From Methanocorpusculum sp. (lineage in GTDB: Archaea; Halobacteriota; Methanomicrobia; Methanomicrobiales; Methanocorpusculaceae), in the NCBI GenBank assembly GCA_017387505.1, contig JAFOFB010000020.1:1-64000 (forward strand): a stretch of DNA of 64,000 bases, written 5' to 3'. This document shows, piece by piece, positions 665 to 44,595 of this stretch (positions are counted from its first letter, which is position 1; the number at the start of each line of letters is the position of its first letter). Both the position numbers and the translations under genes were made by a program. Under the pieces are notes generated by a model. That model saw only the letters and a list, made by a program, of their open reading frames with translations. It made no database searches and was not told the DNA's origin.

Positions 665-2035
665 ATGGCAGAGGACACTATCCCCTACAAAATCTACGTC
701 ACCGAAGACGAGATGCCGAAACAGTGGTACAATATCAAGGCAGATATGCCAAATAAACCAGCTCCGCTGTTAAACCCGAAAACAGGAAAACCAATCACCT
801 TCGAAGAACTAAGAACCATCTTCTGCGATGAACTTGCCCGTCAGGAACTTGACGAAACAAACCGCTTCATCGACATCCCGCAGGAGATTTTAGACTTCTA
901 CAAAATGTACAGACCTTCCCCGCTGGTCCGTGCATACTGCTTAGAGAAAAAACTCGGAACTCCTGCACACATTTACTATAAATTCGAAGGAAACAACACA
1001 AGCGGAAGCCACAAATTAAACTCAGCAATCGTCCAGGCATACTATGCCAAAAAGCAGGGATTAAAGGGAGTCACAACCGAAACAGGGGCAGGTCAGTGGG
1101 GAACTGCTCTTTCCATGGCCTGCGGATACTTAGAGATTGACTGCCAGGTCTACATGGTCAAATCCTCCTACGAACAAAAACCATTCAGACGCGAGGTCAT
1201 GAGAACCTACGGGGCAAATGTCACACCATCTCCATCCGAGACCACCGAAGTTGGAAGAAAAATCAACGAAGAGTATCCGGGAACCCCTGGAAGCTTAGGA
1301 TGTGCAATCTCGGAAGCAGTCGAAGCCGCAACCACTCAGGACGGATACCGCTACGTCCTTGGAAGCGTACTCTCACAGGTTCTTCTCCACCAGACCGTAA
1401 TCGGTCTCGAATGTAAACTTGCTCTCGACAAATACGGAGTAAAGCCGGACATCATCATCGGATGTGCAGGCGGAGGCTCAAACCTCGGAGGACTTATCGC
1501 CCCGTTCATGGGAGAAAAGCTCAGAGGAGAGGCAGACTACAGATTTATCGCAGTCGAACCTTCATCCTGCCCGACATTAACCCGCGGTGTTTACGCATAT
1601 GACTACTGTGATACAGGCAAAGTCTGCCCGCTTCAGAAGATGTACACCCTTGGAAGCGGATTCATGCCGGCAGCATCCCACGCAGGAGGTCTTCGCTACC
1701 ACGGAATGAGCTCCATCCTCTCCGAGTTCTATGACGAAGGATTAATGGAGGCTGTATCAGTCGAACAGACCGAAGTCTTTGCAGCCGCAAAAGAGTTCGC
1801 ACGTGTCGAAGGAATCCTCCCGGCACCGGAAAGCAGTCACGCAATCAAGGTAGCAATCGACGAAGCTCTCAAATGCAAAGAAACCGGAGAACATAAGGTC
1901 ATCCTCTTCGGATTAACCGGTACAGGATACTTCGATATGTACGCATACGAAAAGTTCAACAACGGAGTTATGACTGATTACATACCAACCGATGAAGAAA
2001 TCGCAGAATCTGTGGCAAAACTGCCGCAGGTTTAA
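665..2035 (+). CDS. trpB2: Tryptophan synthase beta chain, TrpB2 type
   Basis: A PLP enzyme that condenses indole with L-serine to give L-tryptophan. The length (456 aa) and long N-terminal extension fit the TrpB2 subfamily, which often stands without trpA, as here. The PLP lysine lies in GSHKLNSA near residue 117 and the phosphate-binding loop is GCAGGGSNLGG. I place the start at 665 (MAEDTIPYK) because the TATA box at 631-639 predicts transcription beginning near 661; an in-frame ATG at 656 is the alternative. The gene stands alone, divergent from the RNase P RNA, with an operator-like palindrome upstream. No other trp gene is in the window. Confidence 0.93.
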   Translation: MAEDTIPYKIYVTEDEMPKQWYNIKADMPNKPAPLLNPKTGKPITFEELRTIFCDELARQELDETNRFIDIPQEILDFYKMYRPSPLVRAYCLEKKLGTPAHIYYKFEGNNTSGSHKLNSAIVQAYYAKKQGLKGVTTETGAGQWGTALSMACGYLEIDCQVYMVKSSYEQKPFRREVMRTYGANVTPSPSETTEVGRKINEEYPGTPGSLGCAISEAVEAATTQDGYRYVLGSVLSQVLLHQTVIGLECKLALDKYGVKPDIIIGCAGGGSNLGGLIAPFMGEKLRGEADYRFIAVEPSSCPTLTRGVYAYDYCDTGKVCPLQKMYTLGSGFMPAASHAGGLRYHGMSSILSEFYDEGLMEAVSVEQTEVFAAAKEFARVEGILPAPESSHAIKVAIDEALKCKETGEHKVILFGLTGTGYFDMYAYEKFNNGVMTDYIPTDEEIAESVAKLPQV

Positions 2036-2043
2036 TTTTTTTT
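2036..2043 (+). terminator. T-run terminator after trpB2
   Basis: Eight T residues follow the trpB2 stop codon directly, the usual archaeal intrinsic termination signal. Confidence 0.6.
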
Positions 2044-2447
2044 GTTCTCTGTAACTCTCAAATATAATCAAATCCAATATAGATACTGGTCAGTCCGCAA
2101 AACTGGCCAGGAATTATAAAAATGATTGAGACAATATGTCTAATCATAACAACCTTCTCGGTTGTATCTCGTGAAATACGAGAATGGATTAAACTAAGAA
2201 CACGGGAAAAGGATGATGACTCTCATCCTCCTTTTCTCTCTCTTTTGGAACAACATTTTATACTTGGTAGTACAATATACATATCAGAGTATTACTGCTC
2301 CGCAGCACTCTACATTCTTAGTGCTATCCAGCATTATAATTCCTTGACATGCATCTGCGGAGTTTGCAACCGCTTTACAAGGGTGCATGTCTAAAACCAT
2401 TTGACTGTTTTCATAAAATAGTACTGTAACTGCAGTATCTGTCTTTC
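2044..2447. other. Intergenic region with several inverted repeats
   Basis: About 400 bases separate trpB2 from the 3' end of the acetyltransferase gene. Visible elements: CTGGTCAG/CTGGCCAG at 2086-2093 and 2103-2110; an imperfect hairpin around GGATGATGACTCTCATCC near 2212-2229; and a longer stem at 2347-2355 with 2384-2392 (GACATGCAT/GTGCATGTC) that encloses GCGG/CCGC (2358-2361, 2371-2374). A 90-codon open frame at 2122-2394 has no family resemblance or ribosome site. The last stem could belong to a small RNA, but no known RNA class fits. Confidence 0.4.
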
Positions 2448-2897
2448 TCAGTACTTTGGTTTAACCCTGTACTCCTTTACAGGATTCTTAAGCAAAACCT
2501 CGTTCTCTCCAAAATCCTCATTCTCGAAAGAACACACAGGGAAAAATCCATTTCTCAGATAAAACCGCATAGCTTTCTCATTTCTCGAAAACACATGAAC
2601 CGACAGATTACCTTTTAGAGAAAGAGCATGCGAAAGCAGCTCGCGACCAATACCTGCCCCTCGTGAGTCGCATCTTACAAAAAGCCCTGCAACATAAGAC
2701 CCGTCAAGGCCAATAAAACCCTTAACCTCTCCGTCATCGAAAACATAAACCTCAGCCTTTGAAATCGCTGAAGAAACCTCATCAAATCTATCCTCAAAAA
2801 AAGAAGACGGGACAAAAGAGTGTGCCTTGCGGTTTCCCGAAAGCCAGATACTCATAACCTCATCGAGGTCACCCGCTCTAAACTCCCTAATCATCAA
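2448..2897 (-). CDS. GNAT family N-acetyltransferase
   Basis: A 149-residue GCN5-type acetyltransferase, expected to move an acetyl group from acetyl-CoA to an amine. The acetyl-CoA loop (motif A) is at residues 74-88, with V....SRGAGIGRELL, and motif B is NEKAMRFYLRNGF at 106-118. The whole protein is one GNAT fold. The substrate cannot be told from sequence; the closest general type is the small YjaB-like group. Its start overlaps the stop of the MBL hydrolase gene by 4 bases, so the two are probably co-transcribed. Confidence 0.85.
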   Translation of the reverse strand: MMIREFRAGDLDEVMSIWLSGNRKAHSFVPSSFFEDRFDEVSSAISKAEVYVFDDGEVKGFIGLDGSYVAGLFVRCDSRGAGIGRELLSHALSLKGNLSVHVFSRNEKAMRFYLRNGFFPVCSFENEDFGENEVLLKNPVKEYRVKPKY

Positions 2898-3613
2898 AGA
2901 ATCCAGGACTGCATATCAGATGCCGCGTACTTGTAATCCCACGGAATCTTATGACTCATATGAACACACCAGAACTCCTTGGCATTCAGCTCCTTTGCAA
3001 GGCGTTCAGCATCTGCCGTGTTCATATGTTTTGCAATATTTACCCCCGGCGGAAAAATTCCGTCGAGTAAAAGCAGATCAGCATCACGCATAAGAGAAAG
3101 AGACTCCTTTGAAATCTCAGCTCTTGTATCGCACGAGTAAACAAACGTCTTACCGTCTGCTCTGATACGCATACCGTACGTCGGCGTATCATGAACCACC
3201 GGGAAAAGAGTAACCTCCATTCCGCAAATCTCAACAGGCTCGAATGGAAGAACCGGAATCTCCTCGTGTCTGATAAAACTAAAGATACTTCCGCAGTAGT
3301 CCAAAACCTCCGGTGCTCCGTACACTTTGATAATCTCGCGCTGAACACGGTAGAAGTCTGCAAAACCCATGAAATGGTCGAAGTGACCATGCGTCCAGAT
3401 AACTCCGTCGATGTGCGGGGCGTTTGAGGCAAGAAGCTGACGGCGAAGGTCCGGGGTTGTATCGATTAAAAGATTCTGTCCGTTGTGTTCGATTAAAATC
3501 GAAGTCCGAAGACGCTCGCGTCCTTCCTCTTTTGCCTGGCGGCAGACCTCACAGTCACAGTTTACCTTAGGCGTTCCAACAGTGTCTCCGGTTCCAAGGA
3601 CAGTAATCTTCAT
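2894..3613 (-). CDS. MBL-fold metallo-hydrolase, PhnP-like
   Basis: A 239-residue metallo-beta-lactamase fold protein. The metal motif THGHFDH lies at residues 74-80, with later ligands in VVHDT and SCDTR. An N-terminal CxCxxC (C19, C21, C24) recalls the zinc-binding cysteines of PhnP-type phosphodiesterases (cyclic phosphate hydrolases). No phosphonate genes are nearby, so the PhnP function itself is not implied. I chose MKITVLGTG at 3613 because it starts one base after the upstream stop (TAAG-ATG) and begins at the conserved first strand; the longer frame to 3676 would run into the upstream gene. Confidence 0.82.
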   Translation of the reverse strand: MKITVLGTGDTVGTPKVNCDCEVCRQAKEEGRERLRTSILIEHNGQNLLIDTTPDLRRQLLASNAPHIDGVIWTHGHFDHFMGFADFYRVQREIIKVYGAPEVLDYCGSIFSFIRHEEIPVLPFEPVEICGMEVTLFPVVHDTPTYGMRIRADGKTFVYSCDTRAEISKESLSLMRDADLLLLDGIFPPGVNIAKHMNTADAERLAKELNAKEFWCVHMSHKIPWDYKYAASDMQSWIL

Positions 3614-3614
3614 C

Positions 3615-4895
3615 TTACTCGCATCCGCTTCTAACTGCGTTTCTTCTCTGAACAAGCTCCATGCCGGCTGCAACATCGTCCGCGTTTAACTCCTTTCTGC
3701 CTGCAAGAAGGGCTGTAACGATTGCTTCGGTCAGCATCATACGAAGGTCAGCTCCTGAAAATCCTTCGGTCATCTCTGCGATGTCTTTGAAGTCCATCGA
3801 GCACGGGATATCGGATGCTACATGGTGAAGGATTGATTCTCTCATCTCGGTGTTTGGAAGAGTGAAGCTGATAATCTCATCAAAGCGTCTCCATGCGGCC
3901 TCGTCAAGCATACCTGCGTGGTTGGTTGCTCCGATTAAGAGAACCTTGTCTTTGATTAAGTTGATGTGGTCGATACACTTGAGAAGTGTGTTTACCGCAC
4001 GCTTCATAGTTCCGTTGTCATCAGAGATACGGGTCTTTGCGACGTAGTCGAACTCATCGATGAAGAGAATACACGGGGCAATACGCTTTGCAAGGTCAAA
4101 GATTCTGTCGATGTTCTTTGAGGTTTCTCCAAGGTACTGGGATGTAATCATGGAGAGGCGAACCTCGATTACAGGCATGTGGACAGCACGGGAAAGTGCT
4201 AATGCAAAGGAGGTCTTTCCGGTTCCGGGTGGTCCTACAAGCAGGATTCTTCCAAGTTCATAGATTCTGTGTGCTCTCAGGAACTCCTGGTTTTCAAGAG
4301 AGGTCTGAACTTTTTTGACGATTGCAAGCTGTTCATCACTGCATACGAGGTATTCTAAAGAGAACTCAATCTCATTTGGTGCGTACGGGATTACTAAGTC
4401 AACCGCTTCCTTCATTGACTCTGACTTTTCGGTGACTGCAGCAATCTTTCCTTTGAGTGCTTCTTCGGTGTCTTCGAAGAGCGGAACCATGCGGCGTGCT
4501 TCGTTGTAAGAGACGGATGTCTCTCCTGCGGTCTCTATTGAAAGCGTGAGTGCCGGGTTTTTCATGATGTCAGCGCCTGTGTGGCGGAAGTACCATTTGA
4601 GGGCTGGAAGATAAGAGGTGACACCGAACTGGCTTAAGTCGTTTACAATTAAGTAGGAGTTCTTGCTGTTCTCTAAGAGCTGGCGTGCTGCGAGGTTTGG
4701 GAAATGGGATTTTAGGATTCCTTCTTTGATTGTGACCGGACGTGCGATAACTCCTGCCGCTTCTGGGCAGAACATGGCACGAAGGTGAGGCGGAAGATCG
4801 TTTACCTCGAGGGCGGGGTTGGTGTTGACTGCTTCAGCTGTTAAGATTATTTCAGTTAACTGAAGAAGTCCCGGATCTATTGTTGACGCTTCCAT
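3615..4895 (-). CDS. AAA family ATPase
   Basis: A 426-residue protein with one AAA module in its C-terminal half: Walker A GPPGTGKT at 221-228, Walker B ILFIDE at 276-281, a sensor region GATN, and an AWRRFDE arginine segment. The first 190 residues match no domain I recognise and probably bind the substrate or partners. The AAA part resembles proteasome-ATPase and Cdc48-type modules, but there is only one, and no HbYX tail, so it is not PAN. It heads the MBL hydrolase and acetyltransferase genes, with 1-base spacing to the first of them. Confidence 0.85.
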   Translation of the reverse strand: MEASTIDPGLLQLTEIILTAEAVNTNPALEVNDLPPHLRAMFCPEAAGVIARPVTIKEGILKSHFPNLAARQLLENSKNSYLIVNDLSQFGVTSYLPALKWYFRHTGADIMKNPALTLSIETAGETSVSYNEARRMVPLFEDTEEALKGKIAAVTEKSESMKEAVDLVIPYAPNEIEFSLEYLVCSDEQLAIVKKVQTSLENQEFLRAHRIYELGRILLVGPPGTGKTSFALALSRAVHMPVIEVRLSMITSQYLGETSKNIDRIFDLAKRIAPCILFIDEFDYVAKTRISDDNGTMKRAVNTLLKCIDHINLIKDKVLLIGATNHAGMLDEAAWRRFDEIISFTLPNTEMRESILHHVASDIPCSMDFKDIAEMTEGFSGADLRMMLTEAIVTALLAGRKELNADDVAAGMELVQRRNAVRSGCE

Positions 4896-4955
4896 ACTTG
4901 TCTATATATGTTAGCGTGTAACTTGCATAAGGTTTTTGCAGGAACAGAAAAAAAA

Positions 4956-6608
4956 TTATGAAAAGTCCATGAGCTTTGCAAGCTCTGCCGCGCCTGGTAC
5001 AGCCTTTTCGAACTCTTCTGCATTTCTAAACGGCATTTTTGAAAGAAGCTTTGTCGCAGACTTTGCAGAAACTCCTGGAAGCCACTTTAGAGCCGCAGGC
5101 GGCAGGCGGTTTACAGGAATCGGATACGGAAGAGCTGTAAGAGATCTCGCTCCATATGAAACAGCCGTACAGGACACAACAGTTCCAACCGGCAGTTTCT
5201 GCGGGATTCCGATTAAGACCGGATACGTTCCCATCTGGCGTCCGAATGAAACAGGTCCTGACACCTCGATTAAGACATCATTGAACACAGTTCCAATCGG
5301 GAAAACTCTTTCAAGCATCGGGACATCAAAGTTTGCTCTGACATCCTCCTTGAATGCATGGAACTGCTTATCGAACTTTCCAAGAGTATTGTTCTCATAC
5401 GCCTTTGTTCCTTCAAACGGCATGAGCTGTCTGATGTTTACTCTTCGGACAAGAAGCCCTGCATCAAAGATTCTTTTAAGGAATGCTTTGTTCTCAGCAA
5501 AAGTCTGCTCAGTCTCTCCGGCAAGTCCCGAGATGAAATTTAATCCCGGCAGAAGTTCCGGGATTCCATTATTTCTAACTGCTCCGACCTCGTTTACAAT
5601 CTCAACAGCTCTAAAGATAGCATCCGCGAAACCTTTCAGACTGTTTGCCTCAACAACTGCAGGGTCTGCTGATTCGATTCCAAATGCCGCGATATCTCCT
5701 GCTGTATGTCCTGCAACAATCTCTGCTAAAGCATCGCGGGCGGCATCCTCGTGTCTTGCAATAGTTCCCGGATTTACGTTGTCGATATGAAGCGTTTTCA
5801 GTTCAGGTGCGGCTTCTCTTATTCCTGAAAAGAGATTGCGGATTTTATCTGCATCCGGCTTTGGGAACTCTCCTCCTGATACACCGTATGCGAGGATGTC
5901 AGGCTGTCTTCCTAAACGGAAATGCCTTGCCCCTGCCTCGTAGAGGGCTGCAGTTTCTGCAAAAATACCTGATGCTTCGCGCTGTCTTGGCATTCCATAG
6001 AACGGCTCGGTACAAAAAGAACATCCCCCGGTAACACAGCGGGAGCATCCGCGTGCAGTTTCGAGCTCAAGCATCACGAAAGGATACATCGGATGCTGAC
6101 GGATTATGTAAGCTCCAAGAGCAGACCAGCGGTCGAAGTCTTTGTAGTTCAAAACACCTTCCGGCTCTCCGCCCGAAAGATAAGAATCAAGAGCTGATGC
6201 CGGGTCGCCTGAAAGCATTCCTGTCCACCCGGAGACTGCCTGCTTCTTTGCGGCTTCTCCTCCTTCTGGCGAGTATCCAAACGCAATCGGACCTCCAAGG
6301 AAGGACACCGTTTTCTTAGAAAAAGTAAATCCGAGCTGCTGAAGCTCTAAGAGCGTTGCAGGAGTTCCAGCCAGATATTTGCCTGGAACTGTCACACCTG
6401 CAATCATCACGACAAGCTTGGCATCCCGAAGAGATGCTGTCTTCATCGGGTCTTTTCTAAGCTGGTCGATTGTAACGTACTCGGGGGAAAGCCCGTGCTC
6501 TTTTAAAACTCCTGCAACGGTTCTGATGTATGGAGAAATATATGGGGGAACACCTAAACAGGCCGGTTCATCCACATACCCGTCGATTATGACAGTCTCA
6601 GATGTCAT
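4956..6608 (-). CDS. Radical SAM protein with C-terminal helix-hairpin-helix (COG1031 type)
   Basis: A 550-residue Fe-S oxidoreductase. The cluster cysteines are C188, C191, C196 and C199 in GCSRCVTGGCSFC. The region before them resembles a Rossmann-like N-terminal domain, and the TIM-barrel core follows. The last 50 residues carry a helix-hairpin-helix (LPGVSAKSATKLL), suggesting contact with nucleic acid. The family is widespread in archaea and its reaction is unknown; a role in RNA or DNA modification is inference. The start overlaps the end of mptE by 11 bases. Confidence 0.85.
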   Translation of the reverse strand: MTSETVIIDGYVDEPACLGVPPYISPYIRTVAGVLKEHGLSPEYVTIDQLRKDPMKTASLRDAKLVVMIAGVTVPGKYLAGTPATLLELQQLGFTFSKKTVSFLGGPIAFGYSPEGGEAAKKQAVSGWTGMLSGDPASALDSYLSGGEPEGVLNYKDFDRWSALGAYIIRQHPMYPFVMLELETARGCSRCVTGGCSFCTEPFYGMPRQREASGIFAETAALYEAGARHFRLGRQPDILAYGVSGGEFPKPDADKIRNLFSGIREAAPELKTLHIDNVNPGTIARHEDAARDALAEIVAGHTAGDIAAFGIESADPAVVEANSLKGFADAIFRAVEIVNEVGAVRNNGIPELLPGLNFISGLAGETEQTFAENKAFLKRIFDAGLLVRRVNIRQLMPFEGTKAYENNTLGKFDKQFHAFKEDVRANFDVPMLERVFPIGTVFNDVLIEVSGPVSFGRQMGTYPVLIGIPQKLPVGTVVSCTAVSYGARSLTALPYPIPVNRLPPAALKWLPGVSAKSATKLLSKMPFRNAEEFEKAVPGAAELAKLMDFS

Positions 6609-7227
6609 GGCCTAAGAGGTGGAGGAGTTTTCTTGCAATCATCAGTTTTCCATGCTTTACAGGGTCGACTGATTTGTCGTCTAAGTCAAAACCAATCAGG
6701 GAAACTGATTTTGCTCCAAGCTCATATGCGGCAAAAACTCCGCGGTCTCCATCTGAAAATCCTCCGAAGTTGTAGACATTTTCAAGAGGAGTGCTTTGTG
6801 TTGTTCCGACAACAGGTCCTTTCATCTTCGGAACCCATGACTTTACAAGAGGCATGTTGTCTCCGTGTGCGTGGACCGCAAGAATTGTCCCTGCCTCGTT
6901 CATCTCCAAAACATCATCATCGAGACCATCGAGGTCTGTAAAAACAATGTTTGGGATAACTCCGCCTTTTTTCATAACGCGTGCGGCGGCATCAGCGGCG
7001 ATTACAATCTTTCCTTCGAAATCGGTCTTTTTGATGTCATCTGGAAGGGAAGGGGCGTTTCCTGCTACAATAATGTCTGAACCTGAAATGGTGTCTGTTA
7101 AAAGAGATATGTCATTTCCCGGAAGAATTGAGGATAAGAGGCGCGCTGCCTCCTCGTCATCCTCGCGGGAAAAGCCGAAGTAGTCCAGAATTTTTACGTA
7201 ATACTGGTCCCAGACTTCAGGCTTCAT
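6598..7227 (-). CDS. mptE: 6-hydroxymethyl-7,8-dihydropterin diphosphokinase MptE
   Basis: Transfers diphosphate from ATP to 6-hydroxymethyl-7,8-dihydropterin in tetrahydromethanopterin biosynthesis. The 209-residue protein has the DUF115/MptE features: N-terminal WDQYYVKILDYFGF, then GSDIIVAGNAPSL, PNIVFTDLDG and VHAHGDN. The ATG at 7227 is chosen because GAGG lies about 9 bases before it; ATG 7233 or TTG 7243-7245 are possible longer starts. It overlaps the stop of the RCK-DHH gene by about 11 bases and the start of the radical SAM gene, so the three form one operon. Confidence 0.9.
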   Translation of the reverse strand: MKPEVWDQYYVKILDYFGFSREDDEEAARLLSSILPGNDISLLTDTISGSDIIVAGNAPSLPDDIKKTDFEGKIVIAADAAARVMKKGGVIPNIVFTDLDGLDDDVLEMNEAGTILAVHAHGDNMPLVKSWVPKMKGPVVGTTQSTPLENVYNFGGFSDGDRGVFAAYELGAKSVSLIGFDLDDKSVDPVKHGKLMIARKLLHLLGHDI

Positions 7228-39349: not shown

Positions 39350-39425
39350 TGTGTAATAGTATGACTGTTGTGGTATTTTAAAGTAGGGGCTCTACCCCCG
39401 AAAAAAATAGGTTTGGGAATTGTTC

Positions 39426-40604
39426 TCAGACGCGTTCGCCGCACTCAGGGCAGAACTTTGCCCCGGCTGACAACTCCGCCCCGCACTTTGGACAGGCAGA
39501 GGCTCCCATCTTCTTTCCGCATTCGGGACAGAACTTGGCACCAGATGGGACGGCCGCTCCGCACTCAGGGCAGAATGAGCCGGATGCCTGCTTTTCTCCA
39601 CATCCTGGACAGAATTTTGCACCGTCCGGAACTGCTGCTCCGCACTTTGGACATACCTTTCCTGCAGGAGCTGCGGTCTGTGCCTGACCGAATGGGGCAG
39701 CCCCTCCGTTCATACCCTGCATCATCATGTTGCCCATTCCCATTCCAGCTCCCATTCCAGCCCCCATCATTGCAAATCCGGCTCCCTCTCCGCCCTGTGC
39801 AGCCCCGACACCAATATTTTCGATGGCCTTTCCTGACTGGTACTGCATGTAGTTCACGCCAAGGGCGGACATTGCACCACGCTTGTTGATTGCCTCCTGA
39901 ACCTCATCAGGCATGCTGATGGTAAGGCCTGCAAACTTCATAATCTTGAGACCATAACTCTCAGTCTCTGCAGTGAGTTTTGCAAGACACATCTGTTCAA
40001 TCTCCTGCAGGTATGCAGGCATATCTAAGACACCCATCTGCTTCTTTGCTTTGAGTTCGCCTAAGATATCATTTAAGACCATCACAATCTGACCTTTGAG
40101 CCAGTCAACAACCTCTTCAGACTTTGTAAGGCCTTTTGTTCCAACGAACTGGGTAATCAGAAGCATTGGGTCTGCAACTTTGTATGCGAACTGACCAAAC
40201 ATGCGAAGCTGTACAACTCCGAAGTCAGAATCACGGAAAGCAAGCGGCTGAGATGTTCCAAACTTATCTCTGAACTCGCGTTTCTGTGCCCAGTAGAACT
40301 CTCCAATCTGGACGTTACCCATTGTCGCGCCAATAATGTCCTTTAAGACTGGGATGTTCTGTGTGGTTAATGCATATCTGTCCGGACGGTCAAAGACCTT
40401 GAGTGCTTTTCCGTCACGGAAGAAGATACCATACTCATCTTCTCTGACAAGTACGTTATCGTTTAAGATGATGTTTCTTGGAAGTCTCCAGATGAGGTTG
40501 TCTCCTTTGTAGTCCTTAACCCAGTAGAATCCAGCACGTGCATCGGCTCCTTCAATATCAGAGCCAGAACCTATTTTCTGATTTACCTTTGAAAATAATC
40601 CCAT
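39426..40604 (-). CDS. SPFH-domain protein with three C-terminal zinc ribbons (YdjI-like)
   Basis: A 392-residue protein. Residues 25-245 form an SPFH/band-7 domain of the 'virion core protein' (YdjI) group, with FYWVKDYKGDNLIWRLP and MKFAGLTISMPDEVQEAI. A Gly/Met-rich linker (about 270-300) leads to three double-CxxC zinc ribbons (CPKCG..CPGCG, CPECG..CPECG, CPKCG..CPECG). SPFH proteins of this group assemble on membranes under envelope stress in bacteria. It is the last gene of a six-gene operon and starts directly after the upstream stop codon. Confidence 0.88.
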   Translation of the reverse strand: MGLFSKVNQKIGSGSDIEGADARAGFYWVKDYKGDNLIWRLPRNIILNDNVLVREDEYGIFFRDGKALKVFDRPDRYALTTQNIPVLKDIIGATMGNVQIGEFYWAQKREFRDKFGTSQPLAFRDSDFGVVQLRMFGQFAYKVADPMLLITQFVGTKGLTKSEEVVDWLKGQIVMVLNDILGELKAKKQMGVLDMPAYLQEIEQMCLAKLTAETESYGLKIMKFAGLTISMPDEVQEAINKRGAMSALGVNYMQYQSGKAIENIGVGAAQGGEGAGFAMMGAGMGAGMGMGNMMMQGMNGGAAPFGQAQTAAPAGKVCPKCGAAVPDGAKFCPGCGEKQASGSFCPECGAAVPSGAKFCPECGKKMGASACPKCGAELSAGAKFCPECGERV

Positions 40605-41141
40605 TTATGCCACCTCAATTCCTGCAACTGTCTCCATTCTGCGGTCGAAGGTTGCCGAAAACTCCATAATATCTCCTTTAAGAGATGAAAGTACAGGCTT
40701 TACCTCCGCAAAACGCCCGGCATCTGCCAGACCTCTTGCCTCTTTTGCTTTGAGAGCAAGTGCATTTACTGCCTCGAAGAGAGCTAAATCATATTCATAG
40801 AGCTTGTTTAACTCATCCTCTAAAATTCTCACAGCCGCAGAGATTCCTGAGTATCCCTGCTCGGCATGACGAATGGAGGCCTCAAGAGTTTTTGCCTTTG
40901 AAAGAACTCCTGCGATGTCGTTCATTAAATCAAGCTCGAGAGAATTTGCCGCAGACTCTCTTACCATCTCGATTGGAATCAGAACAGACGTCTTGAAGTT
41001 GTCTGCAACCTGGTTTCTAAGCATCGAGTCTGCGATTCTTAAATCTTCTTTCTTTCTGTAGCCTGAGTATCCCGGAAGGAAAATCTGAATCTTCTTTAAG
41101 ATACCTCGGTCTTCTTCTACTCTTTCACGTAAGTCAGTCAT
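40605..41141 (-). CDS. Coiled-coil protein of the SPFH/zinc-ribbon operon
   Basis: A 178-residue, nearly all-helical soluble protein without cysteines of note. It begins LRERVEEDRGILKKIQIFLPGYSGYRKKEDLR and continues in long amphipathic helices. I do not recognise a family. In bacterial operons with YdjG/H/I the extra member is PspA, a helical membrane-binding protein; this one might fill that place, but I see no PspA signature. ATG 41141 lies one base after the upstream stop; a longer frame to 41177 runs into that gene. Confidence 0.7.
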   Translation of the reverse strand: MTDLRERVEEDRGILKKIQIFLPGYSGYRKKEDLRIADSMLRNQVADNFKTSVLIPIEMVRESAANSLELDLMNDIAGVLSKAKTLEASIRHAEQGYSGISAAVRILEDELNKLYEYDLALFEAVNALALKAKEARGLADAGRFAEVKPVLSSLKGDIMEFSATFDRRMETVAGIEVA

Positions 41142-41142
41142 G

Positions 41143-41484
41143 TTATTTTTTAAGGACAATTGACACAATCGCGCCAACAGCGATAATCACAAGGGCAATA
41201 CCAATCCAGAACCATGTTCCAAAGTCAGGAAGAAGTGTTCCAAGCCAGGTCTTTACAACAAGGAAGAGACCTGCAATCGTCATAAACAGAGAAAATCCTA
41301 TTGGACCTTTCTCTCCTACAAAGAGCTGGATTAAGGTTGCAAGAACTCCTGTTCCAATAAGGAAAATACCTGCCCCTTCCCAGAAACCGAATGCCGGGAT
41401 AACTGTTGTGATAATCACAGAAATTCCGGCCACAAGGAGAGCCGTTGCCCAGATGAGCGGTACTTTCTTTTCGTTATTTTCCAT
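41143..41484 (-). CDS. Small membrane protein of the SPFH/zinc-ribbon operon
   Basis: A 113-residue protein with four predicted membrane helices (about 8-27, 34-55, 61-83, 90-110) and short charged ends. Short loops and the lack of conserved charged residues inside the membrane speak against a transporter. It overlaps the preceding zinc-ribbon gene by 11 bases and is one base from the coiled-coil gene, so it belongs to the module. Its function is unknown. Confidence 0.75.
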   Translation of the reverse strand: MENNEKKVPLIWATALLVAGISVIITTVIPAFGFWEGAGIFLIGTGVLATLIQLFVGEKGPIGFSLFMTIAGLFLVVKTWLGTLLPDFGTWFWIGIALVIIAVGAIVSIVLKK

Positions 41485-42079
41485 TTAAGACTCCAAGCAT
41501 ATAGCTAGTTGGTTTTTTGTACGCGGGAAGATAAAGTACTTTTGCCGATTTGACAATGAAATCGTAGTCAAGCTCCTGTAAAGTGCCTGGGATTTCTGCT
41601 TCATAGCGCAGGAAAATAAATTCAGCATTGTTTCCTGCTGTATCTTTTTCCATTGTCATTACCATGCGGCTTCCATTCTTGAACTCAGGAATTGTTGTAA
41701 ACTCCGGCTGGTTTATGGTAAGCTCCATGTTCCAGACTCTGGCATACTCTTCCGGCACTGCATCAGCCGCACAGATGTAGAAGTCCCGCGTTCCGCGCAT
41801 CTGTTTTTGACCGGTAACAGCTCTTGATATCCCTCCTCCGGATATTTTCTCGCGATGAACTATCACATCAGCATTGACTACCCAGAACGGAACATACCAG
41901 AGCGGGTCTTTTTCTTCGACCGTCGGTTTTACAATCGCGAACTCAACAGGAGACGTCTTTCCGTCTGCGAAAAGCGACAAACTTCCACAGTGTTCGCAGA
42001 TAAGCATCAGGTCTCTTTCTTTGGATTTTAAAGGAGCTCCGCACGCCAAGCATTTGAGAGGCTGTAATACTATTGACAT
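41474..42079 (-). CDS. Zinc-ribbon protein of the SPFH operon (soluble)
   Basis: A 201-residue protein opening with a zinc ribbon (CLACGAPLKSKERDLMLICEHCG, cysteines at about 10, 13, 30, 33). The remaining part is a single domain with LWYVPFWVVNADV, a pattern shared with the two larger zinc-ribbon proteins upstream (YPFWIVRYTY and YFPIYELKYRY). It lacks membrane helices, unlike them. The three are probably paralogues. Third gene of the operon; starts 9 bases after the previous stop. Confidence 0.78.
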   Translation of the reverse strand: MSIVLQPLKCLACGAPLKSKERDLMLICEHCGSLSLFADGKTSPVEFAIVKPTVEEKDPLWYVPFWVVNADVIVHREKISGGGISRAVTGQKQMRGTRDFYICAADAVPEEYARVWNMELTINQPEFTTIPEFKNGSRMVMTMEKDTAGNNAEFIFLRYEAEIPGTLQELDYDFIVKSAKVLYLPAYKKPTSYMLGVLNGK

Positions 42080-42088
42080 TTTTCCACC

Positions 42089-43120
42089 TCAGTTAAACAT
42101 ATCATAGGTATTTTCGTAGTTTGTCTCAATGCACTGCTGTTTCCTGCCGCGCTTAAGGCCTTTACCCTTCATGGCTCCTTCTAAGATTTCATCACCGTAT
42201 CTGAAGCGGTTGTAGGCAAAGCCAATGATTCCGGCAGCGGCAATCAGACCGAATGCGAAGAAGAGTGCGATTGCTTCAATTGCGCCAAGAGCCAAGCCGA
42301 AGAAGATAAAGGCAGCAAGAACCGCTCCTGAAAGAGTACCTCCAAGAGCTGCTGCTGTACTCTGGCTTCCTGCATTTCCAGGGGCGCGTCCTGATATTAC
42401 CTGCGATGTAATGCCGTCTAAGACTGCAAAGTATGCTCTGTCTTCATAGGTGTATCTGACAATCCAGAACGGATAGTACACAAGACTGAATGCTTTTTCG
42501 AAGAAGAATGCTTTCGAGAAGTACACCTCATCCATAGAGCGCTTTCCGTCTTTGATTGCCTGGAGTTTTATCTGAGCAGACCCTTCGCTGTATGCATCAT
42601 CACGCGATTCGGGAACTCCGAATGTTACAATCGATTCATCATCGAACTCAACTGCTTTTGCGTGGTCAGGGATTCTGATTGCTGCAATTCCTAAGTCTCC
42701 AGGGTCGCAGGCAATGTCAGAGTAGATGTATTCTCGGTTGACGAGTGATTCATGCGGAATTCTTCTATCCGGCTCGTCCTTGTCGCCTTTTTTTATCTCA
42801 ACACCGCAGACACATGCTTTTCCGCGTCCGACAAGGCGCCAGAACGGCAGATAAATTGGATAGGCTTCGCTTATCTGTGCATTCTTTTCGAGGTCTTTTG
42901 CCTTCGGACCTTCTTTCAGCCACTCTAAAAAGCGAGCCTCCGCTTTTTCGCGTGTGACATCTAAGCGGTACATGATTTTTCCAATTCCCTCATCAGTTGT
43001 CAGAGAGAATACGGAGTCACAGAATTTACAAAGGACGAGTGACTCTCCTTCTTCAGACTGTACCTGACCTCCGCAGTTCGGGCATGTCAGTGAGACGATG
43101 ATTTTTGGAGTCTTGCTCAT
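42089..43120 (-). CDS. Zinc-ribbon membrane protein (YdjG-like)
   Basis: A 343-residue protein: N-terminal zinc ribbon (CPNCGGQVQSEEGESLVLCKFCD), a cytosolic domain with two 'YLPFWR' and 'YYPFWIVRY' segments, then two hydrophobic helices near 260-310, and a basic tail (KGKGLKRGRKQQ). This layout of TFIIB-like zinc ribbon plus membrane span is that of YdjG in the Bacillus pspA-ydjGHI operon. Its start overlaps the upstream stop by 4 bases (ATGA). Confidence 0.8.
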   Translation of the reverse strand: MSKTPKIIVSLTCPNCGGQVQSEEGESLVLCKFCDSVFSLTTDEGIGKIMYRLDVTREKAEARFLEWLKEGPKAKDLEKNAQISEAYPIYLPFWRLVGRGKACVCGVEIKKGDKDEPDRRIPHESLVNREYIYSDIACDPGDLGIAAIRIPDHAKAVEFDDESIVTFGVPESRDDAYSEGSAQIKLQAIKDGKRSMDEVYFSKAFFFEKAFSLVYYPFWIVRYTYEDRAYFAVLDGITSQVISGRAPGNAGSQSTAAALGGTLSGAVLAAFIFFGLALGAIEAIALFFAFGLIAAAGIIGFAYNRFRYGDEILEGAMKGKGLKRGRKQQCIETNYENTYDMFN

Positions 43121-43875
43121 GATGAACCTCCGTCAGGTTTTTTGACAACTTTGTGTGCCAGGATTTTTCCTGCAAAGATTCCGGCAATAACGAGCACGAA
43201 GAAGATTGGAGTTATTATGAAACCGAGCAGAGTTCCAATAAATCCCAGAACGAATGCCAAAGCCATGACTGCAACGTAGGATACTGAACTTCTCTTCGGA
43301 GAGTTGGTTACAGAGATTCTGCCGGATGAGCCGTCTATGACCATTGCGTACTCTGTTCCGCCATATCTGTACTTCAGTTCATAGATTGGGAAATAGACAA
43401 GTGACTGGTCGATTGGTGTACCTTCCAAATCTCCAACATATGAGTCGATTGCAATGTCCGGGTGAAGTACTTCAGCTCCTCCTGCTTTTGTGCTGGAGTC
43501 GAAGATTACCATGTCTCCCGGCGGAATTTCGATGCTGTGCATTCCGGGAAGCAGTGTTCCGCGTGCCGGTCTTGCGGCAATTTTTTCCTTGCCGTCTACA
43601 GTTCTTCTAAAACGGAAGACAGGGAAGTATTCCTTTTTGATAGCAGTTATCTCTGCTGTCGCTTCCATGTCCTTTGGGCAGGCAGGGCCTGCTGTCCAGC
43701 GTTTGAAGATGGCGCGTGATGCATCTTCGGTTATGGAAAACGGCAGTATGTAGAAAAATATTGCCTCTCGCCTATCGATGTACGAGGGCGTACCGCAGTA
43801 GGAACAGACAGAAAGCTGTGTTCCAGGTTTAACTGGTAATGGTGCCCCGCACTTCGGGCAGGTAAAATTAACCAT
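43117..43875 (-). CDS. Zinc-ribbon membrane protein (YdjH-like), first gene of the operon
   Basis: A 252-residue protein: zinc ribbon (CPKCGAPLPVKPGTQLSVCSYCG, cysteines at about 5, 8, 23, 26), a domain with VFRFRR and YFPIYELKYRYGG, and two C-terminal membrane helices (about 200-245). It is a paralogue of the next gene product. MVNFTCPKCG at 43875 fits because a TATA box at 43897-43908 (minus strand) predicts transcription from nearly the same base; the frame extends to 43917 but those codons overlap the TATA box. Confidence 0.82.
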   Translation of the reverse strand: MVNFTCPKCGAPLPVKPGTQLSVCSYCGTPSYIDRREAIFFYILPFSITEDASRAIFKRWTAGPACPKDMEATAEITAIKKEYFPVFRFRRTVDGKEKIAARPARGTLLPGMHSIEIPPGDMVIFDSSTKAGGAEVLHPDIAIDSYVGDLEGTPIDQSLVYFPIYELKYRYGGTEYAMVIDGSSGRISVTNSPKRSSVSYVAVMALAFVLGFIGTLLGFIITPIFFVLVIAGIFAGKILAHKVVKKPDGGSS

Positions 43876-43896: not shown

Positions 43897-43940
43897 GGTA
43901 TAAATATTAAACGCCATTGAAGTCTGAAACCTGCTCAGAC
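43897..43940 (-). promoter_or_regulatory. Promoter of the SPFH/zinc-ribbon operon with inverted repeat
   Basis: The minus-strand TATA box AATATTTATACC is at 43897-43908. Upstream, GTCTGA and TCAGAC (43922-43927 and 43935-43940) form a perfect 6-base inverted repeat with a 7-base spacer. It lies 14 bases from the TATA box, where a regulator could control the whole operon. Confidence 0.5.
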
Positions 43941-43971: not shown

Positions 43972-44595
43972 TTAAGAGCGTTCGCCGTAGATACGCTTAA
44001 TTTCGTATGCCTTTGCGGTCTTGCCCTTTCTCATCAGCATGTTGCCTTTACGGAGTTTAATCCGCACAACTCTAAACTGCTTTCCGGCAATCGTTGCAAT
44101 CGAATCAACCATGTATTTGGTCTCTCCGTCAACCTGTTCGTAGAGCGGAACAGTCCTTGCACCCTTGTTTACAGATGCGCTGATGATAACGAGGTCAACA
44201 AGTCTGGTCCAGAGAGTATTGATTTTCTCTGCCGGCATCTTGTCGCGTCTTGCGTTGTTCTCCTCGATGGATAAGACCTCAACATTATAAGTCTCCTCGC
44301 CTGCTTCAGCAACAAGGAAGTCACCGACTCTGACCATCTCGCCTTCGATAAGTTCAATCTTTGCCGGAATGGACTCGCTTCCGTGGCTGATGATTGCCTT
44401 TACCATACAGGACTTCGGCTCCTTTAAGGTGATACGCATCGTGTGTCCGCACTCAACACACTGAACAACTGCCTCAGGCGGGTTTTTCAGGATTGCGAAG
44501 TCAGTCTCTTCTCCGCAGACAGGGCAGTCTAAAATGATGTAATCCTCATTTTCGAACTCCTCGTCGAACTCTTCAATATAGTTATCGTTATTCAT
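43972..44595 (-). CDS. HVO_0476-like zinc finger protein
   Basis: A 207-residue archaeal protein. After an acidic start (about 1-18), a zinc ribbon has CPVCG and CVECG (about 25-28 and 46-49). A basic beta-rich domain follows and ends in KLRKGNMLMRKGKTAKAYEIKRIYGERS, likely to bind nucleic acid. The family is known from Haloferax and methanogens and its role is not established. Its downstream T-run precedes the promoter of the SPFH operon. Confidence 0.82.
   Translation of the reverse strand: MNNDNYIEEFDEEFENEDYIILDCPVCGEETDFAILKNPPEAVVQCVECGHTMRITLKEPKSCMVKAIISHGSESIPAKIELIEGEMVRVGDFLVAEAGEETYNVEVLSIEENNARRDKMPAEKINTLWTRLVDLVIISASVNKGARTVPLYEQVDGETKYMVDSIATIAGKQFRVVRIKLRKGNMLMRKGKTAKAYEIKRIYGERS

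Follow-up and report, generated by a model that had tools for sequence, protein, structure and literature searches.

Can the SPFH/zinc-ribbon half of a Ydj-type membrane system stand without PspA? The question is raised by a tightly packed unit of six genes on the minus strand (39426-43875) of a 64-kb stretch of Methanocorpusculum DNA, here called the window. The known counterpart is the Bacillus subtilis pspA-ydjGHI operon (PMC8581546; PMC9239133; PMC11237479); in Bacillus, YdjI and PspA depend on YdjG and YdjH to reach the membrane (PMC8581546). A Psp domain was found in fewer than half of the archaeal genomes (PMC9239133). Our analysis favours, with rather more confidence than doubt, the view that the archaeal operon represents the Ydj-type SPFH/zinc-ribbon system in a euryarchaeal form free of PspA, which would serve in membrane maintenance.

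We named the genes A to F in the order of transcription; all six open reading frames start with ATG, and all window features given below lie on the minus strand. An earlier reading of the letters alone (the sequence-only reading) had described six genes on a single strand, and the coordinates bear out both this and the spacings: from A to F, a 4-base overlap, a 9-base gap, an 11-base overlap, a 1-base gap and a 0-base gap. Its protein types hold as well, with zinc ribbons in A, B, C and F, an SPFH domain in F, a helical E, and membrane segments at the C-termini of A and B and in D, which has four (C, E and F have none). Its count of seven ribbons or ribbon-like sites does not. Canonical CxxC...CxxC ribbons number six, one each in A, B and C and three in F, and the sole candidate for a seventh, an isolated CVC in B, is not conserved.

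Do these genes belong together? A scan of a genome collection returned 150 relatives, and the analysis went on with the best 80 as loci; the scan was run once, with E as the query, and undersamples loci that have F or A-C without E. The best 80 of the 150 were all archaeal records. F came directly after E in 77 of 77 untruncated loci, the remaining three of the 80 examined stopping at a contig edge. The 77 loci cover Methanomicrobiales, Methanomassiliicoccales, Methanoperedens, Methanocella and Thermoplasmata, and the E-F spacing is mainly -4 to +5 bases. The order varies while the set is kept: Methanocorpusculum and relatives have A-B-C-D-E-F, whereas Methanomassiliicoccales, Methanoperedens and Methanocella have E-F-A-B-C; a second copy (locus L039) reads D-E-F-A-B-C, and three further loci (L071, L096, L099) have divergent A-B-C and D-E-F blocks. 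Many Thermoplasmata loci beyond the reach of the D profile have a four-helix protein the size of D immediately upstream of E, as do other lineages. Several of these neighbour counts rest on fragmentary metagenome contigs.

The class was scanned separately for E (199 genomes, 37 genera), which is present in 33 genomes and nine genera. A and E occurred together in 26 of the 199 genomes, E alone in seven and A alone in two (Fisher p 6e-24, uncorrected for phylogeny). The module is almost universal within the genus Methanocorpusculum, and in some of its genomes (such as G022, G065, G067 and G152) A-B-C is unlinked from D-E-F, with strong A matches elsewhere in the genome. The sequence-only reading had named separation of the genes in related genomes as one outcome that would refute it, and on this point the survey divides: A-B-C sits elsewhere in some genomes with D-E-F, but co-occurrence across genomes is very strong. 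The flanks do not travel with the module, and neighbours vary among species; purH, a CPxCG zinc-finger gene and hypD, which flank it in the window, were rejected as parts because they are not carried along. Recurrence in dozens of species, with changing flanks, takes the arrangement well beyond chance. The module is real, as had been proposed: E-F forms its core, which D often joins as a third member, and A-B-C is a second block in strong association with that core.

What, then, are the parts? A (43117..43875, 252 amino acids) has an N-terminal zinc ribbon (CPKC...CSYC), a two-repeat beta-rich domain and a C-terminal transmembrane hairpin. B (42089..43120, 343 amino acids) is built alike, from an N-terminal ribbon (CPNC...CKFC), a homologous body and a C-terminal transmembrane hairpin, and C (41474..42079, 201 amino acids) has a ribbon (CLAC...CEHC) and a homologous body without a transmembrane segment. 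Profile searches with each retrieve the others, with the ribbon cysteines kept in nearly all rows, and by this measure the three are mutually homologous. No model in Pfam or NCBIfam covers the body domain. Modelled by AlphaFold (pLDDT 83), A displays the ribbon, a pair of long beta-hairpin repeats and, at its C-terminus, a helical hairpin of two transmembrane segments. As a known fold for the body, a B. megaterium YpeB entry appeared at noise level only, and our analysis did not reproduce the relation to YpeB/NTF2 that has been proposed for YdjG.

The link to the Ydj system runs through bacterial proteins. Zinc-ribbon membrane proteins encoded beside SPFH genes in Vibrio, Comamonas and Enterococcus match the A/B profiles at 74-97 bits, in a very small set, which affects the E-values, and hhalign paired the A/B profiles with this bacterial partner over 236 columns (99.2%, E 2e-19). 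The Enterococcus protein exceeds the Pfam cut-off for the TF zinc ribbon; YdjG is described as spanning the membrane and carrying a TF zinc ribbon (PMC9239133). Its gene is the middle one in an operon (L151) that runs SPFH, zinc-ribbon membrane protein, TPM, which is the ydjI-G-H composition. Because A, B and C are homologous to the zinc-ribbon partner in this operon, we class them as YdjG-type; we infer their orthology with B. subtilis YdjG itself from a comparison that ran through the Enterococcus protein. Other relatives of A exist in Methanocorpusculum, where a frame of ~243 amino acids next to one of ~507 amino acids, diverged from A, recurs across the genus (in the window's own genome, G000, at C14:2195-2446; in G065, for example, on C1 near 321351-322770).

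F (39426..40604, 392 amino acids) is an SPFH protein (PF13421, Band_7_1, E 7e-38) with a Gly/Met-rich linker, three C-terminal zinc ribbons and no transmembrane segment. Four to six CxxC motifs lie near the C-terminus in 66 of 68 F-type proteins, nearly all of them without a transmembrane segment, and two or three ribbons are kept in most F tails. Band_7_1 also matches B. subtilis, where the protein matched is probably YdjI; F is a putative YdjI orthologue by shared Pfam family, the comparison made. With the bacterial matches of A, B and C, this family membership sustains the relation to a Ydj-type system that had been read from the letters. Assembly of the products through their zinc ribbons, also suggested there, appears plausible. 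Other SPFH frames were seen outside the window. Long SPFH-matching frames of 754 and 673 amino acids (L099 2874-5135 and L063 9431-11449) lie near the module or an E-like gene, and on contig C62 of genome G120 (about 723-6801) a second SPFH gene (a 577-amino-acid frame) is followed by several frames of 644-763 amino acids with A-like ribbons, in what looks like an expanded SPFH/zinc-ribbon cluster.

E (40605..41141, 178 amino acids) is the protein that the sequence-only reading, calling it a coiled coil, had put in PspA's place. Its AlphaFold monomer (pLDDT 84) is compact, an N-terminal helix plus a four-helix bundle, and conservation is highest in the stretches DLRxRVEEDRGLLKKIQLxIPGFRGYRxREDLRxAD and RHAEQGYSGI. 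Comparison of E with archaeal PspA by hhalign gave 0.2%, and no PF04012 match is listed for E. A fold search gave no PDB match at E<=0.001 and no ESCRT-III in the PDB top 50, to be read with the caution that monomer models can hide polymer states. A PspA/ESCRT-III identity of E is rejected on the profile comparison and unsupported by the fold search. An amphipathic N-terminal helix as a membrane anchor was also set aside, as the moment in most of the members checked was ordinary. All 49 E proteins match a Leptospira-named family, NCBIfam LIMLP_15305 (NF047596; best E 1.5e-17); the window's E, at 44 bits, is far under the curated cut-off of 210, and by these scores E is homologous to the curated family yet outside it. 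The literature on LIMLP_15305 yielded a single table mention with no function stated. No E was found on plasmids.

The small membrane protein D (41143..41484, 113 amino acids) has four transmembrane segments and no family match, and it recurs upstream of E in other euryarchaea. The earlier suggestion that it is a new part proved sound, in that D is an additional conserved part of the module. NfeD was considered and rejected as its identity: three of 20 D members match NfeD, weakly (best 0.0083), and the D of the window's own genome is unmatched by the NfeD membrane model.

If E is not PspA by descent, might it still do PspA's work? The operon would then be a phage-shock-like system in which E coats the membrane as a PspA equivalent, recruited by A, B and F. 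PspA (PF04012) was matched in none of 41 relatives in the order, while nine of 14 control genomes, B. subtilis included, did match, and it is missing from 13-14 of 17 further module-bearing genomes elsewhere. E is, moreover, helical and obligately linked to an SPFH gene, as PspA is to ydjI in Bacillus. These points are offset by the lack of PspA homology, by the compact bundle with no ESCRT-III among its top fold matches and by an N-terminal helix that is not markedly amphipathic. The absence of PspA also extends to relatives without the module, and PspA is above cut-off in three of the 17 genomes (Methanoperedens twice, Methanocella once; one more is sub-threshold). Because Methanoperedens and Methanocella have PspA alongside the module, a simple swap of E for PspA fails. 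E in PspA's place is unsupported as homology and not general as a replacement; a functional analogy is conceivable, and we judge this explanation rather unlikely. Other Psp and ESCRT parts were sought too: TPM (PF04536, YdjH-type) was matched in none of the 41 relatives, with the B. subtilis control positive; Snf7 was unmatched in the 41 relatives, by a model that matched one control only, below cut-off; and no AAA gene was recognised among the nearest window neighbours.

Other explanations were weighed as well. F's SPFH membership would suit a constitutive scaffold of membrane microdomains, of the kind proposed for HflKC, prohibitin and stomatin, which would serve the quality control of membrane proteins or the assembly of complexes rather than a stress response, with E and A-C as client adaptors; according to PMC12624060, SPFH assemblies are domed rings that have been linked to membrane organisation and to quality control, and near-universality within the genus also speaks for such a scaffold. 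However, no protease or chaperone gene was recognised in or beside the operon, and the patchy distribution outside the genus (nine of 37 genera of the class) is unlike that of a housekeeping function, which leaves this explanation unlikely on balance. That the ribbons of A, B and C bind DNA or the transcription machinery, making these proteins membrane-tethered regulators, is highly improbable: related bacterial proteins do match a TFIIB-type ribbon model and DNA binding has been suggested for YdjG (PMC9239133), but A, B and C fall below every curated TFIIB cut-off, two of the three are membrane-anchored, and F has such ribbons too, for which contact between proteins is the simpler explanation. 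An antiviral or conflict system is scarcely credible. SPFH/zinc-ribbon pairs do occur on bacterial plasmids, one Vibrio pair a few genes from a TIR-domain gene, but there was no significant PADLOC match, unannotated phage records gave one partial SPFH match, and the module is stably present in nearly every Methanocorpusculum genome.

We therefore return to the PspA-free Ydj-type variant, which has difficulties of its own. PspA and YdjH, the carriers of most of the known function or anchoring in Bacillus, are absent from the close relatives; the A-type body fold has no PDB match; and A-B-C is sometimes unlinked, or undetected beside E-F in a few divergent genomes. Since A-B-C is unlinked or undetected in some genomes with E-F, recruitment of F by A or B cannot be universal. 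How might the system work where all parts are present? A and B would sit in the cytoplasmic membrane by their C-terminal hairpins, with ribbon and body predicted to face the cytoplasm, and by analogy with Bacillus they are likely anchors or sensors. Following the YdjG/H-YdjI precedent, they may recruit soluble F, and the contact would probably involve either F's three ribbons or the body domains. F, like SPFH proteins in general, would oligomerise into a membrane-apposed scaffold. E, the constant genetic partner of F, could act on or inside this scaffold as effector or regulator, and D may be a second membrane part that fixes the E-F pair to the membrane. In this organism the system would do without PspA and YdjH, its likely role being to keep the membrane intact or to organise membrane proteins under stress.

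A bolder version, which we hold only tentatively, is that euryarchaea have a PspA-independent machine for membrane maintenance, with an SPFH scaffold, D and the previously undescribed helical effector family E as its core; this core would be separable from the YdjG-type zinc-ribbon receptors and a second solution to the PspA/ESCRT-III task. Archaeal envelope stress responses are hardly known, and the module offers a concrete candidate with defined parts for many PspA-less euryarchaea. With the SPFH/zinc-ribbon half of the Ydj system set apart from PspA here, the role of that half alone becomes testable. The module also draws attention to an uncharacterised helical family in common with a Leptospira-named one.

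Signals that could frame the operon were read from the window. A TATA-box-like TTTAATATTTATA (43899..43911) ends 23 nucleotides upstream of the gene A ATG and is the probable operon promoter, with a near-leaderless start; a T7 run (39401..39407) lies 18 nucleotides past the gene F stop codon and is a possible archaeal terminator. Directly upstream on the same strand is the gene for the CPxCG-related zinc-finger protein (43972-44595, PF19769, E 9e-50), a neighbour in the closest species only and thus outside the module.

How does the operon compare with known systems? Its E is homologous to the LIMLP_15305 family, though far below the cut-off. Flotillin-NfeD/YuaF operons likewise encode an SPFH protein and, as its partner, a small polytopic membrane protein, but the window's D is unrecognised by the NfeD membrane model. 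The Meth_adaptin ESCRT loci of Methanobacteriales likewise include an archaeal SPFH protein with a zinc ribbon, and they carry Vps4, ESCRT-III and adaptin-like proteins (PMC10936438), none of which was seen among the window neighbours.

Closer are the bacterial loci. F-like SPFH genes were found on bacterial plasmids, and the Vibrio (L150) and Comamonas (L152) copies adjoin a zinc-ribbon membrane protein; these and the Enterococcus locus resemble the archaeal module in placing SPFH beside an A/B-family zinc-ribbon membrane protein with no adjacent PspA. They differ in that the bacterial partner carries two ribbons at its N-terminus, homologues of E and D were not detected there, and the SPFH tail in Vibrio and Comamonas, unlike that of F, lacks ribbons. 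On the Vibrio coralliilyticus plasmid (L150 1045-1914), genes for TIR-domain and TRAFs-binding-domain proteins lie a few kilobases upstream of the pair. On plasmids of Bacteroides finegoldii (L148 5001-7612) and Butyrivibrio (L149 5031-8384), the SPFH gene is followed by a gene whose product combines transmembrane segments with a helical tail, and then by a zinc-ribbon protein gene, an arrangement reminiscent of D plus E in which homology to E is undetectable.

The nearest likeness is to pspA-ydjGHI of B. subtilis, which shares with the archaeal operon a YdjI-type SPFH family with C-terminal ribbons and a YdjG-type membrane zinc-ribbon protein, united in a single operon. The window and close relatives, in contrast, are without PspA and TPM/YdjH, and the archaeal operon has three YdjG-type paralogues in place of one, together with D and with E, the constant partner of F.

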